Positions 20,252 to 28,107 of a stretch of DNA of 36,217 bases are shown piece after piece. The notes beneath the pieces are model-generated. The model was not told the origin of the DNA and ran no database searches. It saw only the letters and a list, made by a program, of their open reading frames with translations. Source of the stretch: Candidatus Gastranaerophilales bacterium (GTDB lineage Bacteria > Cyanobacteriota > Vampirovibrionia > Gastranaerophilales > Gastranaerophilaceae); contig CALUQS010000014.1 in NCBI GenBank assembly GCA_944322975.1, positions 1 to 36,217 of the forward strand, given 5' to 3'. A program made the position numbers and the translations under genes. How positions within the stretch are numbered: the first letter of the stretch is position 1; every line of letters begins with the position of its first letter.

Positions 20252-20839
20252 ATGAGCGAAAATATTTTCAGCAATTTTTACAACAGGGTTCTCAGCTTCT
20301 TTCAGAATGAAAAAACTGACGGTGACTCATCAAAAACAACTGCCACCAACAGATTAAAACTTGTCCTTATGCAAGACAGGTCTAATCTTGACGGTGCTAC
20401 AATGCAAAAAATGAGAGAACAGCTTATTGCGGTTATTTCAAAATACATTGAAATAGACAAAGATTCCTTGAATCTCAACCTTGAATCCGAAGGTGATGAA
20501 ATTGCACTTATGCTGAATATTCCTGTTATAAGGGCAAGAACTCCGGAAGAGATTGATGAGCTGGAAAAAGCTGAAGAAGAAGCTAAAAAAGAAAATATAA
20601 AAGCAGCTATCGAAGCCGAAATCGCCCAACTATCTAATGATACGGACGATAACAAAGAAGAAAACGAAGATAAAGACCAGGCAGAAGATGATGAAGCAAA
20701 CAATGATTCATCTGACGATAGCGAAAATATAAAAAACGAATCCTCTGATGAAAAAATTCAAGAAAATGAGGCAGAAGAAGAGAATAACACCTCTAATTCT
20801 AATACACAGGAAAAACAATCCTCTAAACAGAAAAAATAA
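20252..20839 (+). CDS. minE: Cell-division topological factor MinE with C-terminal acidic extension
   Basis: 195 residues, about twice the usual 80-110. Residues 1-95 are a normal MinE: an amphipathic N-terminal membrane helix (IFSNFYNRVLSFF), NRLKLVLMQDR at 33-43 (the MinD-contact helix/strand), and the dimerising beta region through about residue 93 (LNLESEGDEIALMLNIPV). Residues about 98-195 are an added, highly acidic, Glu/Asp/Asn/Ser-rich tail with no predicted fold. AAAGGAG precedes the ATG by 8-9 nt. It is the last gene of the operon and is followed by a 15-bp terminator. The tail is not frameshift debris: it is in frame, ends cleanly and keeps codon use like its neighbours. Confidence 0.92.
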   Translation: MSENIFSNFYNRVLSFFQNEKTDGDSSKTTATNRLKLVLMQDRSNLDGATMQKMREQLIAVISKYIEIDKDSLNLNLESEGDEIALMLNIPVIRARTPEEIDELEKAEEEAKKENIKAAIEAEIAQLSNDTDDNKEENEDKDQAEDDEANNDSSDDSENIKNESSDEKIQENEAEEENNTSNSNTQEKQSSKQKK

Positions 20840-20920: not shown

Positions 20921-22537
20921 TTACAGATTTTTTAAATCTTTTTGAACATCAGATGAAACCTGTCTGACGTTAAATTTAGACTTTAAAAACTCAAGCATAT
21001 TAGGAGTAAGCATATTAGATGTGCAAACAGGAAGATAAATGTTTTTTACCCCCAGATAACGAAGATTAAACAGGTGTGATATGGTATGAAGATTACAGGT
21101 TGTAATAAAAACACTCACTGGAAATTTGTTAAAGTCCACACGACTTTTAATGTGCGATAGTATTTTATAAATTAAAGAAGAATTAAAAAAAGAATCAAAA
21201 TATAAAATATTGTCTTTTTTAGACGACATTGACGTGCTGATAACAAAATAATCGTCGCTGATTATTGATTCCATTTTATTAAAATATTCGCTGTGTAAAG
21301 CCGCATGGTTGAGCAGCCCTATAACTATCAAATGTTTTATTTTTTTCGATTCAATTTTTTCTATAACAGCGTCCACTTTTTGCATAACAACTTTTTCGTC
21401 ATACCCGACTTTAACAGTTGTAATTTTATTGTCTTTTTTATAACCTTCTGTATCTTGTGCGGCTTTAATCAGTTTTGAAAAGTCATTGTTTTCAATACGG
21501 GTCATACCTTTGCCGCCAATTATGTTTGTTGTGAAGATTCTGCCTCTGTAAAGTTTGTCTAAAAGGTATTGAAAATCTCTGATAACAAGCACCGCTCCTT
21601 TAAAGGCCGAAAAATCGTAATGTACATTATCAAGAGACATTTGATAATGTCCTTTTAAGTTAGGATATTTTTCAAACTCAGGATATGCATGCGCAACAAT
21701 AAGCCCGTTGTGTGTATAAACATTTATATCTGTATTTTTTAATGACTCAAGCAGGTCTTTCAAATCTTTTAAATTCTGTCCGGAAACGAGCACAGATTTA
21801 CCCTTGTCCACACCTATATTTACATCGTTTAAAGAAATTTTGCCGTAGTACTCTTCTTTAAACTTGTGTATTTTTTGATGTATTTGAAAATTTATTCCGG
21901 CAAAATCATTTATTTTTTTCAGAAGTTTTGACTCTTGAATAGTTGAAAAATTCAGGCTGTTAAAAAGTTTTAAAATAGCATCTTCTTCCGGCAGATAGTC
22001 ATCTGTGTATGATTTCATCTCAATAAGCCGTATGCTTGCGCTTTTAATCAGGTTCAAAATAATTTCATAAAGATTTTTTACATCGGAGTTTAATATTTTA
22101 TTTCTTAAAATTGCCTGTTGTTCTCCCTGATTGACTATTGAGGAGAGGTTGAATTTTTTAAAATTCAAATTTGATTTTAAAATCTGGCAGTCTATGTTTT
22201 CCTTATCACAAACAGCAATATACGCTTGTTTAACCGATTCCTTTTCCGTATGAATTTTGTATATCAACTCTTCAAATTCTATACGGTTAAATTCATAACC
22301 GATTATCACAACCGACAAATAGTTTATAATCTGATTTTTTATGTTCCGGTTTTCATAACCAAGTTCCTGCATTTTTATGTAATAGTATGTGATTTGCTTA
22401 AGTTCATAAAGCAATACCTCCATAAGCGAATATACAATCGGGTCAACACTGCAAAATCCGTCTATGGCACAGTCGTTATAAGACAAATTGTTTTTGTTAT
22501 CTGTTCCTGAGTCTTTTTCAAAAAATTGATTAAACAT
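20921..22537 (-). CDS. Hybrid cluster protein (HCP/prismane) homologue lacking the cluster ligands
   Basis: 538 residues, full HCP length. Family landmarks align from end to end: the N-terminal CAIDGFC (Cys23-x5-Cys29) followed by helical DPIVYSLMEVLLYELK; VSGQNLKDLKDLLESLKNTD; INVYTHNGLIVAHAYPEFEKY; RIFTTNIIGGKGM; and LGVKNIYLPVCTSNMLTPNML near the end. In true HCPs (ligand residues recalled, not searched) the hybrid 4Fe-2S-2O cluster is held by one His, two Glu and four Cys. Here these fall on Gln254, Gly278, Phe322, Leu409, Met437, Phe450 and Asn482, so none survive, and only two of the four N-terminal cubane cysteines remain. The frame is intact, so this is a pseudoenzyme rather than a pseudogene. 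True HCP reduces NO/hydroxylamine; this protein's role is unknown. Confidence 0.75.
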   Translation of the reverse strand: MFNQFFEKDSGTDNKNNLSYNDCAIDGFCSVDPIVYSLMEVLLYELKQITYYYIKMQELGYENRNIKNQIINYLSVVIIGYEFNRIEFEELIYKIHTEKESVKQAYIAVCDKENIDCQILKSNLNFKKFNLSSIVNQGEQQAILRNKILNSDVKNLYEIILNLIKSASIRLIEMKSYTDDYLPEEDAILKLFNSLNFSTIQESKLLKKINDFAGINFQIHQKIHKFKEEYYGKISLNDVNIGVDKGKSVLVSGQNLKDLKDLLESLKNTDINVYTHNGLIVAHAYPEFEKYPNLKGHYQMSLDNVHYDFSAFKGAVLVIRDFQYLLDKLYRGRIFTTNIIGGKGMTRIENNDFSKLIKAAQDTEGYKKDNKITTVKVGYDEKVVMQKVDAVIEKIESKKIKHLIVIGLLNHAALHSEYFNKMESIISDDYFVISTSMSSKKDNILYFDSFFNSSLIYKILSHIKSRVDFNKFPVSVFITTCNLHTISHLFNLRYLGVKNIYLPVCTSNMLTPNMLEFLKSKFNVRQVSSDVQKDLKNL

Positions 22538-22646
22538 AACTGCATGTTAAACAAATTCGACATTTAAACCATTGACCGGCACGGCTATAAAAATGTAATC
22601 TATATAACAGCATATTAAGACTATGTGTTTAAAATAAAATATATAG

Positions 22647-22652
22647 TATAAT
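22647..22652 (+). promoter_or_regulatory. Candidate -10 element for the secreted M16 gene
   Basis: Perfect TATAAT in the 164-bp gap between the divergent HCP-like and M16 genes, 49 nt before the M16 ATG. No convincing -35 is seen. Confidence 0.4.
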
Positions 22653-22701
22653 CTGTTATCAAATAATAAATTACAATGAACAAAACCCAAAAGGATAAAT
22701 C

Positions 22702-25350
22702 ATGAAAAATATTAAACAATTTGCAATTTTAATTTTTGTCTTCTTTGTCATCGCTGCACAGTGCGTTTTTGCACAGGACTATTCAACTTTTAAACTCGAT
22801 AACGGACAAACCGTTATTATAAAAGAAGTCCACGACAATCCGATTGTAACAATCGATACGTGGATAAAAACAGGCTCAATTAACGAAAACGATACAAACA
22901 ACGGTGTCGCTCATTTTTTGGAACACCTGTTTTTTAAAGGAACAAAAAAACATCCTACAGGCGAGTTTGACAAAATCCTTGAATCAAAAGGAGCAATGAC
23001 AAATGCCGCAACAAGCAAAGATTTTACCCACTATTACATAACAATTCCGTCTAAATACTTTAACCTTGCAATGGATTTACATGCCGATATGCTCTTAAAT
23101 CCGCTTATTCCGGCAAAGGAACTTGAAAAAGAAAGAAAAGTCGTTATAGAAGAGATTTCTAAAACCAACGATAACCCTGAAAATAAACTTTACGAAAACA
23201 TGATAAAATCGCTTTATCAAAACCATCCTTACAAAAGACAGGTTATAGGCAAAAAAGAAATTATTGAAAATATCCCGCGAGAAGAAATCCTTTATTTTTA
23301 CAATACCTGGTATAACCCTTCGAATATGATAACAGTCGTTGTCGGTGATGTTAATACACAGGAAGCGTTAAAAAGAATCAAAAACAACTTTAATAAAAAA
23401 GAAACGAAAAAAACAAAACTTCCTCAGTACAAACCTGACAAATATCTTGAAAAATCAAAAGAAGTAACAGCTTTTGATAAAGTAAAAACAGGTTATATGA
23501 TGATAGGTTTCAGAGGTGTTCCGCAAGAAGACCGCTCAGAAAGTTACGCCCTTGATGTTCTGGCAACAATACTCGGCGACGGACGCTCTTCAAAATTATA
23601 CCAGTCAGTCAAAGAACAACAACAGCTTGCATACAGTATCGGTGCAGGTCATGCCTCAATGAAAGATGACAGCATTTTATACATCAGTGCAAACTTTATC
23701 CCCATAAACAAAGAAAAAGTTAAAAAAGCAGTCTTTGATGAAATAGAAAAAATAAGAAACGGCAACTTTGATGAAAAAGATATACAAAAAGCCAAAAGCA
23801 TAATAGAAAGAGACACCTTCTATTCACGCGAATCCACCTCAAATATAGCAAACGAACTCGGCTATACCACACTTGTGTACGGCGATTCAGAATACTATGA
23901 CGAATATATTGATAATATAAAAAAAGTTACCAAAAACGATATAATAAAAGTCGCAAAAAAATACCTTAACCCTCAACAGGCTGCTGTTTCTATAATGCTG
24001 CCGGATGAAACCTGCCAGCAAAACACCAAAAATATAAGCCATGTCAAAAAGCACACTCATCCCAACAAACCTGTGCTTGTAAAAAAAGATAAAACAATTT
24101 CTCAATACAAACTGCCCTGTAACATAAGTCTTATCATCAATCACAACCGCTTAAACGATATTGTTGCAATGACAATATACTCTAAAGGAGGAAATTATAC
24201 AGAAAAAAAACCGGGGCTCGGCACTATAACATCATCGCTTATGCTTAAGGGTACAAAAAAATATTCCGCACTGGATTTGTCACAGACAATGGAACAAAAC
24301 GGAATAATAATCGAACCTTCAAACAGTTCTGATATGTTTTCAATAGCCGTAAAAACAACCAAAAACGATTTAGCACTTACTTTTGACCTCTTAAACGAAA
24401 TAGTTAACAATGCCTCGCTTGATGAGCAAGAGCTTGAAAAAATAAAAAAAGAAAAACTACAGGCAATACAAAGAAACAGAGATTTGCCGGTAAATGTAGC
24501 GCTCGAAGAATTCAAAACCGCAATATGGCAGGGAACCCCGTACGGCGTAACTGGCAAAGTCCTTGAAAAGACAATCCCTTCAATAAACCAGAGTGATGTT
24601 GTTGATTATTACACGGGACTTTTTTATCCTGAAAACCTTGTAATATCAGTCAACGGAAACGTTAATGACAACGACATAATTAACGGTATTACAGAAATCT
24701 TTTGTCTGGATAAACAAACAAACGCCAAAAAATTTGACTACACTACCTGCCAAAACCTGTTTAAACCTGTCAGCGCAAATAAAACCATAAAAAAAGCAAA
24801 AGATGTTGAGGTTGCGTGGATAGTAATGGGCTGGCTTACAGACGGAGTACAAAATCAAAAAGACATTGTAACCCTGCAGTTGATTGATTCAATCTTAGGC
24901 GGAGGCATGAGTTCCAGACTGTTCAACAGGCTTAGAGATGAACAGGGGCTTGCTTATCAGGTAGGTTCAAGCTTTGCCGCAAATGTAAATAAAGGCATAT
25001 TTGCTCTTTACATAGGTACAAACCCCGCAACCGCACAGCATTCTAAAAACGAACTTTTAAAACAGATTAATCTGCTTAAAAAGGAATTTGTCTCCGATAA
25101 AGAATTGCAGGAGGCAAAAGATAAAATACTGGGCAATTTTATACTCTCTCAGGAAACTAACATGGAAAAAGCCTCAACTCTAGGCTGGTTTGAACTTTCG
25201 GGCAGAGGTTATGAGTATATGAATAAGTTCCAGGAACTTGTAAAAAGCATAACCGCAACAGATATAATAAGTGTTGCAAACAAATATTTTGAACAGCCAT
25301 ATGTGTTCACAATAGTAGCACCGCAAAACTGTTTGAAAAATATAAAATAA
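22702..25350 (+). CDS. Secreted two-unit M16 zinc metallopeptidase (catalytic plus non-catalytic halves fused)
   Basis: 882 residues. A signal peptide (MKNIKQFAILIFVFFVIAAQ, cleavage near VFA at 22-24) sends it to the periplasm. The N-terminal half has zinc motif HFLEH at 71-75 and the third ligand in VVIEEI (Glu150), with normal spacing. The C-terminal half lacks HxxEH (PGLGTITSSLMLKGT at the same place) but keeps the substrate-binding SSRLFNRLRDEQGLAY. It therefore carries in one chain what the genes at 405 and 1760 supply as two, and would close a degradation chamber around short peptides. AAGGAT precedes the ATG by 8 nt. It is divergently transcribed from the HCP-like gene. Confidence 0.92.
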   Translation: MKNIKQFAILIFVFFVIAAQCVFAQDYSTFKLDNGQTVIIKEVHDNPIVTIDTWIKTGSINENDTNNGVAHFLEHLFFKGTKKHPTGEFDKILESKGAMTNAATSKDFTHYYITIPSKYFNLAMDLHADMLLNPLIPAKELEKERKVVIEEISKTNDNPENKLYENMIKSLYQNHPYKRQVIGKKEIIENIPREEILYFYNTWYNPSNMITVVVGDVNTQEALKRIKNNFNKKETKKTKLPQYKPDKYLEKSKEVTAFDKVKTGYMMIGFRGVPQEDRSESYALDVLATILGDGRSSKLYQSVKEQQQLAYSIGAGHASMKDDSILYISANFIPINKEKVKKAVFDEIEKIRNGNFDEKDIQKAKSIIERDTFYSRESTSNIANELGYTTLVYGDSEYYDEYIDNIKKVTKNDIIKVAKKYLNPQQAAVSIMLPDETCQQNTKNISHVKKHTHPNKPVLVKKDKTISQYKLPCNISLIINHNRLNDIVAMTIYSKGGNYTEKKPGLGTITSSLMLKGTKKYSALDLSQTMEQNGIIIEPSNSSDMFSIAVKTTKNDLALTFDLLNEIVNNASLDEQELEKIKKEKLQAIQRNRDLPVNVALEEFKTAIWQGTPYGVTGKVLEKTIPSINQSDVVDYYTGLFYPENLVISVNGNVNDNDIINGITEIFCLDKQTNAKKFDYTTCQNLFKPVSANKTIKKAKDVEVAWIVMGWLTDGVQNQKDIVTLQLIDSILGGGMSSRLFNRLRDEQGLAYQVGSSFAANVNKGIFALYIGTNPATAQHSKNELLKQINLLKKEFVSDKELQEAKDKILGNFILSQETNMEKASTLGWFELSGRGYEYMNKFQELVKSITATDIISVANKYFEQPYVFTIVAPQNCLKNIK

Positions 25351-26958: not shown

Positions 26959-28107
26959 ATGAAAAAAACAAGCACTAAAAAAAGAGGTTTTTCTCTTGCA
27001 GAAGCGCTTATTACATTGACAATAATAGGTATTATTGCAATGCTTGTGCTCCCGGGTTTGAGAAAATACTCCTCTTTGCATGCATTTGCGGCACAGTTGA
27101 AAAAAGATTACATGACCTTGAACAATTCGCTTGATTACGTATTGGCGGATGATTTTGATGTCGACATAGAAGAAATGGGCGGCAGTGCCTTTTTCCAGGA
27201 AAAAATGGTGCCTACTTTTAACGCTGTTTTGCAATGCGGCGGCTCAAACATGTATGAATCTGCCGAAGGCAAAAGAGACGGCTGTTTTGCTTCTTCACAG
27301 GGGCTGCCTGTTACTCCGTCAAGCGCTGTTTTGCTTGCTGACGGTTCTTCAATCGGCAACAGCGGTATGTATTATCTTATAGATGTTAACGGCCCGAACC
27401 TTCCTAATGTCGAAGGCGCTGATATTTTCTTGTATGAATTGAGAAGAGTAAAAGGCGATTATCAATCACCTGATGCAAAGGATGAAACAACAGGAACAAT
27501 CGCTATGCTGACACCGGTTGTTAATGGTTTCTTTAACAAAATTCATAATGCCTTAATTCCTGCTGCTTATGCAGCATATGCGGATTTGGATATGCGAGAT
27601 CCACAGTCTTGCCGTGATGGTAATTGTAGTGATCATCCTATCGTAGGCGGCGGCGGTGGAGACCCTGATTACAATGGTACAGGCAATGGAAACACTACTA
27701 CATATCCAAGAGACCCGGATCCTACCCCTGATAATCCGGAAGATCCGTTCCCTGAAGATGACGATGATGGTGACGGAAACGGCGGCGGCGGAGGCGGCGG
27801 AGGAGGAGGCGGGAATCCTGCTAACCCGAATCCGGGTAATCCGACTCCACCGGAAATTACACCTGGTAACCCTGATCCGAATAATCCTACACCGGGTAAT
27901 CCTGATCCGAATAACCCTACACCGAATAACCCCACACCGAATAACCCTACACCGAATAACCCTACACCGGGTAATCCTAATCCAATACCATCTGACACAG
28001 GTTCTGTCACAGAAGACGGTACATATGCAGCAGGCTGGAGATTTGTACCTGTCGGAAAAGCCAAAGAGGTTATGGATAACGGCTGGAAGATAGAATCGTG
28101 GGACTAA
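26959..28107 (+). CDS. Type IV prepilin-like protein with Gly- and Pro/Asn-repeat tail
   Basis: 382 residues. The N-terminus MKKTSTKKRG-FSLAEALITL is a class III (prepilin) signal: cleavage by PilD-type peptidase after Gly10, with Glu15 at +5 and a hydrophobic helix to about 32. A globular pilin-like domain (about 35-190) includes a likely disulfide (CGGSNMYESAEGKRDGC). After AYAAY, an acidic DDDDGDG segment leads to an 11-Gly run and then about 13 five-residue units of the NNPTP/GNPTP type, ending in a short folded-looking tail (GWRFVPVGKAKEV). GAGGA precedes the ATG. It is probably a pseudopilin or surface adhesin; the repeat tail would act as a stalk. No assembly genes are nearby. Confidence 0.88.
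   Translation: MKKTSTKKRGFSLAEALITLTIIGIIAMLVLPGLRKYSSLHAFAAQLKKDYMTLNNSLDYVLADDFDVDIEEMGGSAFFQEKMVPTFNAVLQCGGSNMYESAEGKRDGCFASSQGLPVTPSSAVLLADGSSIGNSGMYYLIDVNGPNLPNVEGADIFLYELRRVKGDYQSPDAKDETTGTIAMLTPVVNGFFNKIHNALIPAAYAAYADLDMRDPQSCRDGNCSDHPIVGGGGGDPDYNGTGNGNTTTYPRDPDPTPDNPEDPFPEDDDDGDGNGGGGGGGGGGGNPANPNPGNPTPPEITPGNPDPNNPTPGNPDPNNPTPNNPTPNNPTPNNPTPGNPNPIPSDTGSVTEDGTYAAGWRFVPVGKAKEVMDNGWKIESWD
27835..27985 (+). repeat. In-frame 15-bp tandem repeat (NNPTP units) within the pilin-like gene
   Basis: About ten repeats of a 15-bp unit such as aataaccctacaccg, with variants ggtaatcctgatccg. The last four units (from about 27911) are nearly identical at the DNA level, so copy number is probably variable by slippage. 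All units keep the reading frame. Confidence 0.85.

Follow-up and report, generated by a model that had tools for sequence, protein, structure and literature searches.

Results

The window, a stretch of 36,217 nucleotides from a Gastranaerophilales bacterium, carries on its reverse strand an open reading frame (20921..22537, −) that begins with an ATG at 22537, contains no internal stop and encodes the protein studied here (P0001, 538 amino acids). The reading frame, profile matches, PDB relatives and a structural model all identify the product as a ligandless protein with the fold of the hybrid cluster protein (HCP). A divergent promoter region (22538..22701, no strand assigned), bearing a AAATTATACTATA element conserved across the genus, is shared with the gene for an M16 family peptidase of 882 amino acids (22702..25350, +), a neighbour by physical linkage only. 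The same divergent peptidase gene occurs at 20 of 21 other loci of the genus, the exception being truncated by a contig edge. Elsewhere in the window, the MinE gene of a minC-minD-minE cluster (20252-20839, +) encodes a MinE domain at residues 27-92 followed by a tail of ~100 residues rich in Glu, Asp and Asn, and the product of 26959-28107 (+) is prepilin-like, with an N_methyl domain, repeats of the PNNPTP type and an extended run of glycines.

The protein matches the Pfam Prismane family (PF03063) with 120.8 bits (E 8.5e-35; cut-off 27). Its top PDB relatives are the HCPs of E. coli, M. thermolithotrophicus and D. vulgaris; the best-ranked entries (7de4, 8cnr and 1e2u; E 8.5e-40 to 8e-37) align over residues ~21-538. 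The AlphaFold2 model, for which 81 homologues were used (pLDDT 85.9, pTM 0.86, residues 1-28 of low confidence), recovered the fold of D. vulgaris HCP (DvHCP, 1e1d) with E 5.5e-28 and TM 0.80. Together these results bear out the initial annotation, which had described an open frame of HCP length with HCP landmarks throughout, and by sequence and predicted structure the protein is confirmed as a full-length class I HCP homologue and a member of the HCP/CODH superfamily. It resembles class I HCPs (TIGR01703, NF003658; D. vulgaris 1e2u) in length, in fold (TM about 0.8) and in homology from end to end, and it possesses the N-terminal outer-helix region that is absent in class III. The curated cut-off of TIGR01703 itself is 360.8 bits; with a score of 230.9 bits (E 2.5e-68) the protein falls outside the equivalog.

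One difference from class I is the loss of the residues that bind metal. We aligned the ligandless sequences by MAFFT with DvHCP and 17 canonical HCPs from the same class. In the window protein H244 of DvHCP is replaced by Q254, E268 by G278, C312 by F322, C406 by L409, C434 by M437, C459 by F450 and E494 by N482, so that the ligand set HECCCCE, complete in 17/17 canonical HCPs, reads QGFLMFN. These are exactly the seven residues that the first reading of the sequence had named, and the comparison with Desulfovibrio HCP finds no hybrid-cluster ligand kept. Among 81 ligandless sequences, 58 have lost all seven ligands and 71 all four of the Cys ligands. From the fifth ligand column to the sixth the distance is 25 residues in canonical HCPs and 13 (n=77) or 14 (n=4) in the ligandless proteins, which have thus lost about half of this stretch; a deletion of about 12-13 residues is common to all 81 and amounts to 12 in the window protein, whose shortened loop (residues 437-450; 21188..21229, −) contains the Cys434 and Cys459 columns. 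Because these 12 residues are missing between the two columns, F450 is the least certain of the assignments. Misalignment as the cause of the ligand loss was excluded, since pairwise phmmer, MAFFT with the 17 canonical relatives and the fold match were concordant.

The N-terminal cubane site is likewise incomplete. Its CxxC motif (C3 and C6), found in 17/17 canonical HCPs, is missing in 81/81 ligandless sequences, and C15 and C21 of DvHCP survive in the window protein as C23-x5-C29, as had been proposed. Cys23 (codon 22469..22471, −, positioned by arithmetic from the ATG at 22537) is kept in 73/80 relatives and Cys29 (22451..22453, −) in 75/80, the pair being retained in about 90% of the ligandless relatives.

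It is highly improbable that HCP chemistry, the reduction of NO or hydroxylamine, continues here via a cluster held by replacement ligands. The fold and many surrounding glycines are conserved, but little remains of the ligand loop and every one of the seven ligands has been replaced, and variants of E. coli HCP at Glu492 have shown that even one such ligand alone is important (PMC10502027). All HCP classes have been described with common metallocluster ligands (PMC10502027).

The window protein contains six cysteines in all (23, 29, 110, 117, 481 and 505), three of which are new to the clade and near-invariant within it. Cys110 (codon 22208..22210, −), Cys481 (21095..21097, −) and Cys505 (21023..21025, −) are each conserved in 79/80 relatives, and essentially no canonical HCP has cysteine in these columns: the first is mostly V or A (Y in DvHCP), the second Y in 16/17, and the third T or S. 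Cys481 adjoins the former Glu494 column. In the secondary structure of the AlphaFold2 model, predicted strands 474-477 and 499-502 precede C481 and C505, respectively. Judged from alignment and model, these two cysteines probably sit in the type of position that bore the C406, C434 and E494 ligands, and all three gained cysteines would lie near the old cluster site. A single sequence (L157) lacks both C481 and C505, a joint absence that fits the expectation for a pair.

The ligandless protein was present in 22/23 sampled genomes of the window's genus. Orthologues in 21 of the 22 other congeneric genomes are intact, 66-83% identical and have lost the same ligands, with the set Q-G-F-L-[MIL]-F-N; one congener (G007, 85% complete) has the canonical HCP only. 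Other genera of the family carry proteins 26-36% identical with diverse residues in the ligand columns, and an HCP-family match was found in 116/117 family genomes searched, that of the window included. When a profile of the ligandless clade was run against a 97-genome sample of the order, 78/85 family members scored at least 430 bits, 5/85 matched over the N-terminal three quarters only (about 290-340 bits) and 2/85 gave no match. In the samples of the order and the phylum no ligandless HCP was found outside the family: scores of at least 430 bits were confined to it, and the profile reached at most 340 bits elsewhere. At L111:8901-10325 and in G064, G076, G091, G108 and G125 the C-terminal third of the ligandless HCP is short or has diverged strongly.

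In the tree a branch with SH-aLRT 100 separates the ligandless sequences from the rest, and the canonical ones are set apart likewise; the shared loop deletion lends independent support to a single origin of the ligandless clade. The window protein displays all of the clade's characters, namely the ligand loss, the 12-residue loop deletion and C110, C481 and C505.

That the protein is a relict or a degenerating pseudogene without function is scarcely credible. In favour of decay stand the lost ligands and an in-frame stop within the matched region of a few relatives in the family (G069, G147, G149 and G166). Against this, dN/dS (Nei-Gojobori) was 0.010-0.086 in unsaturated pairs within the genus and at most 0.124 in other unsaturated pairs, congeneric frames at the above identities remain open, the gene is near-universal in the family and the new cysteines are fixed. 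The initial preference for a new function over decay is thus supported by the selection analysis, the congeneric orthologues and the family-wide presence alike. An assembly artefact or contamination was also excluded, the gene being present in independent MAGs from many studies.

Partly degenerate HCPs occur in the same order, in the sister families f7 (L043, L052, L061) and f6 (L049, L070). They too have lost ligands, and their tree position is close to that of the ligandless clade, but they keep two or three ligands and have neither the 12-residue deletion, nor the C481/C505 pair, nor a linked glutaredoxin. These paralogues may mark earlier steps of ligand loss; the branch that they share with the ligandless clade, for which the tree tool gave a warning, may instead reflect long-branch attraction. 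One genome (G032) contains three tandem ligandless paralogues (L033:5620-10485 / L135:3968-8833) together with a canonical HCP (L045), and tandem HCP matches below the cut-off were seen in G059 and G088.

An HCP above the TIGR01703 cut-off was found in 43/117 family genomes, and 74/117 had none. Two congeners, G012 and G019 (99% complete), carry the ligandless form and lack a canonical match, and no canonical HCP was found in the window's own genome, which is 85% complete. Since most family genomes have the ligandless form without a canonical HCP, it is unlikely that the latter is an obligate partner, and of the three roles first suggested (sensor, scaffold, partner of a true HCP) the last has lost ground. 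Two stronger clues lay beyond the first reading: the gained C110, C481 and C505, and the glutaredoxin operon of other genera. The same counts bear on a broader alternative, in which the protein would be a structural scaffold or sensor binding a partner protein such as a canonical HCP, the M16 peptidase or a regulator, its cysteines stabilizing the fold or forming a structural disulfide. We regard this as improbable. A full-length fold kept without active-site ligands would suit such a role, as would the conserved pairing with the divergent peptidase gene in the genus; however, 74 family genomes lack an HCP above the cut-off, so a canonical HCP is no general partner, and the peptidase gene adjoins the locus in the window's genus alone, in a divergent rather than an operonic arrangement.

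A more widespread neighbour is a glutaredoxin. Outside the window's genus, 45/62 GTDB loci have a glutaredoxin gene immediately upstream of the ligandless gene, on the same strand and in one operon with it. These genes comprise about 74-101 codons, lie at gaps of -23 to +16 nt from the HCP-like gene, and encode the active-site motifs CPYC (37), CPFC (4) or CPYS (4). In contrast, an upstream glutaredoxin was found at 0/38 canonical or partly degenerate HCP loci (Fisher P 1e-14, a value that overstates independence because the loci are related). Two kinds of glutaredoxin fill the slot, one Grx2/GST_N-like and the other Grx3-like (L102, L132, L133 and L137), which suggests selection for the partnership itself. 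One of the Grx3-like loci (L132) groups with the window's genus in the tree (SH-aLRT 90). The proteins at L132, L133 and L137 have neither C23 nor C29, and this pair is therefore not required.

The window and its genus have no linked glutaredoxin at the locus, and the same is true of one clade of other genera. A search for glutaredoxins of the linked subtype elsewhere in the window's genus gave distant matches only (best E about 1e-5 to 1e-3). Glutamate-cysteine ligase (PF04107) was found in 30/30 family genomes, including that of the window, which makes a glutathione-type thiol plausible. At several loci where the glutaredoxin is missing (L144, L150, L153, L154, L156, L173 and L187), small divergent genes adjoin the ligandless gene upstream; their products have a 'VSFKG'-like motif and a hydrophobic glycine-rich stretch.

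Discussion

We tentatively conclude, with confidence a little short of even, that the window protein is a neofunctionalized, cluster-free HCP paralogue of one Gastranaerophilales family, acting as a glutaredoxin-linked thiol-redox protein. In the structural model the protein keeps the whole HCP fold, and it has lost the residues for binding a hybrid cluster and an ordinary N-terminal cubane; according to this proposal their place is taken by dedicated thiols: C110, C481 and C505, plus the C23-x5-C29 pair in most members. C481 and C505, following neighbouring core beta-strands, would lie along the edge that formerly held the cluster. The three gained cysteines would become oxidized, nitrosylated or persulfidated, and a small glutaredoxin of the dithiol type, transcribed together with the HCP-like gene in most genera, would reset them; in the window's genus an unlinked reductant would replace the operon glutaredoxin. 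We infer that it is the gained cysteines that react, with glutaredoxin as their reductant and a nitrosative or oxidative stimulus as the physiological signal. Counter to this model, the window's genus keeps all the cysteines yet has no linked glutaredoxin.

C110, C481 and C505 could equally bind metal. The main rival to the thiol-redox proposal, which we consider rather unlikely, is that these residues, perhaps with C23 and C29 or with H297, form a new site for Zn or another Fe-S cluster that the glutaredoxin delivers or repairs. Glutaredoxins can indeed carry Fe-S clusters. The three cysteines were acquired together and are hardly ever lost singly, and H297 is His in 64/81 sequences where canonical HCPs have Asn. 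On the other hand, there is no invariant fourth Cys or His ligand, for position 297 is Gln in the remaining 17 sequences and C23/C29 are lost in several; moreover, the linked glutaredoxins are mostly of the dithiol CPYC type (37/45) and not CGFS, the type usually associated with Fe-S delivery. HCP and CODH share one fold with different ligand sets, so that re-liganding has occurred in the superfamily and provides a precedent (PMC10502027).

The broader form of the thiol-redox proposal reaches further, and we advance it with more reserve, as a possibility: that the HCP fold, once that of an Fe-S-O metalloenzyme, now serves a metal-free enzyme or sensor that is coupled to glutaredoxin and uses thiol (or S-nitrosothiol or persulfide) chemistry, with a new cysteine active site in the vacated pocket, and that it is a core protein across the family. 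To our knowledge, no comparable switch in chemistry has been described in the HCP/CODH superfamily. CODH clade D offers a partial likeness: its C. hydrogenoformans CODH-V is a superfamily member without its family's catalysis, and a redox or stress role is proposed for it (PMC10502027, PMC13056359). CODH-V, however, still binds an Fe-S-O cluster via its ligands, whereas the window protein keeps none.

The native role of HCP is itself debated between NO reductase, protein S-nitrosylase and stress protection (PMC10210160, PMC13056359). Since HCP reportedly forms S-nitrosothiols out of NO, although this activity is under debate (PMC10210160), a putative link of the ligandless protein to NO or S-nitrosothiols is reasonable. 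A survey from 2026 of the gene neighbourhoods of 1476 HCP genes places FeS proteins and regulators close to class I genes and, in the passages available, mentions neither a glutaredoxin link nor the ligandless clade (PMC13056359). Nor did we find a description of a ligandless HCP group in the literature covered, most subscription journals and preprints lying outside it.

In conclusion, a glutaredoxin partner points this branch of the superfamily toward thiol chemistry, and a scaffold without metal in a conserved relative offers a natural test of what the HCP fold does alone. There is also a warning for annotation: with a family match in 116 of the 117 genomes and an equivalog-level HCP in 43, a protein of these gut bacteria that matches Prismane should in most cases not be taken for a reductase of NO or hydroxylamine.
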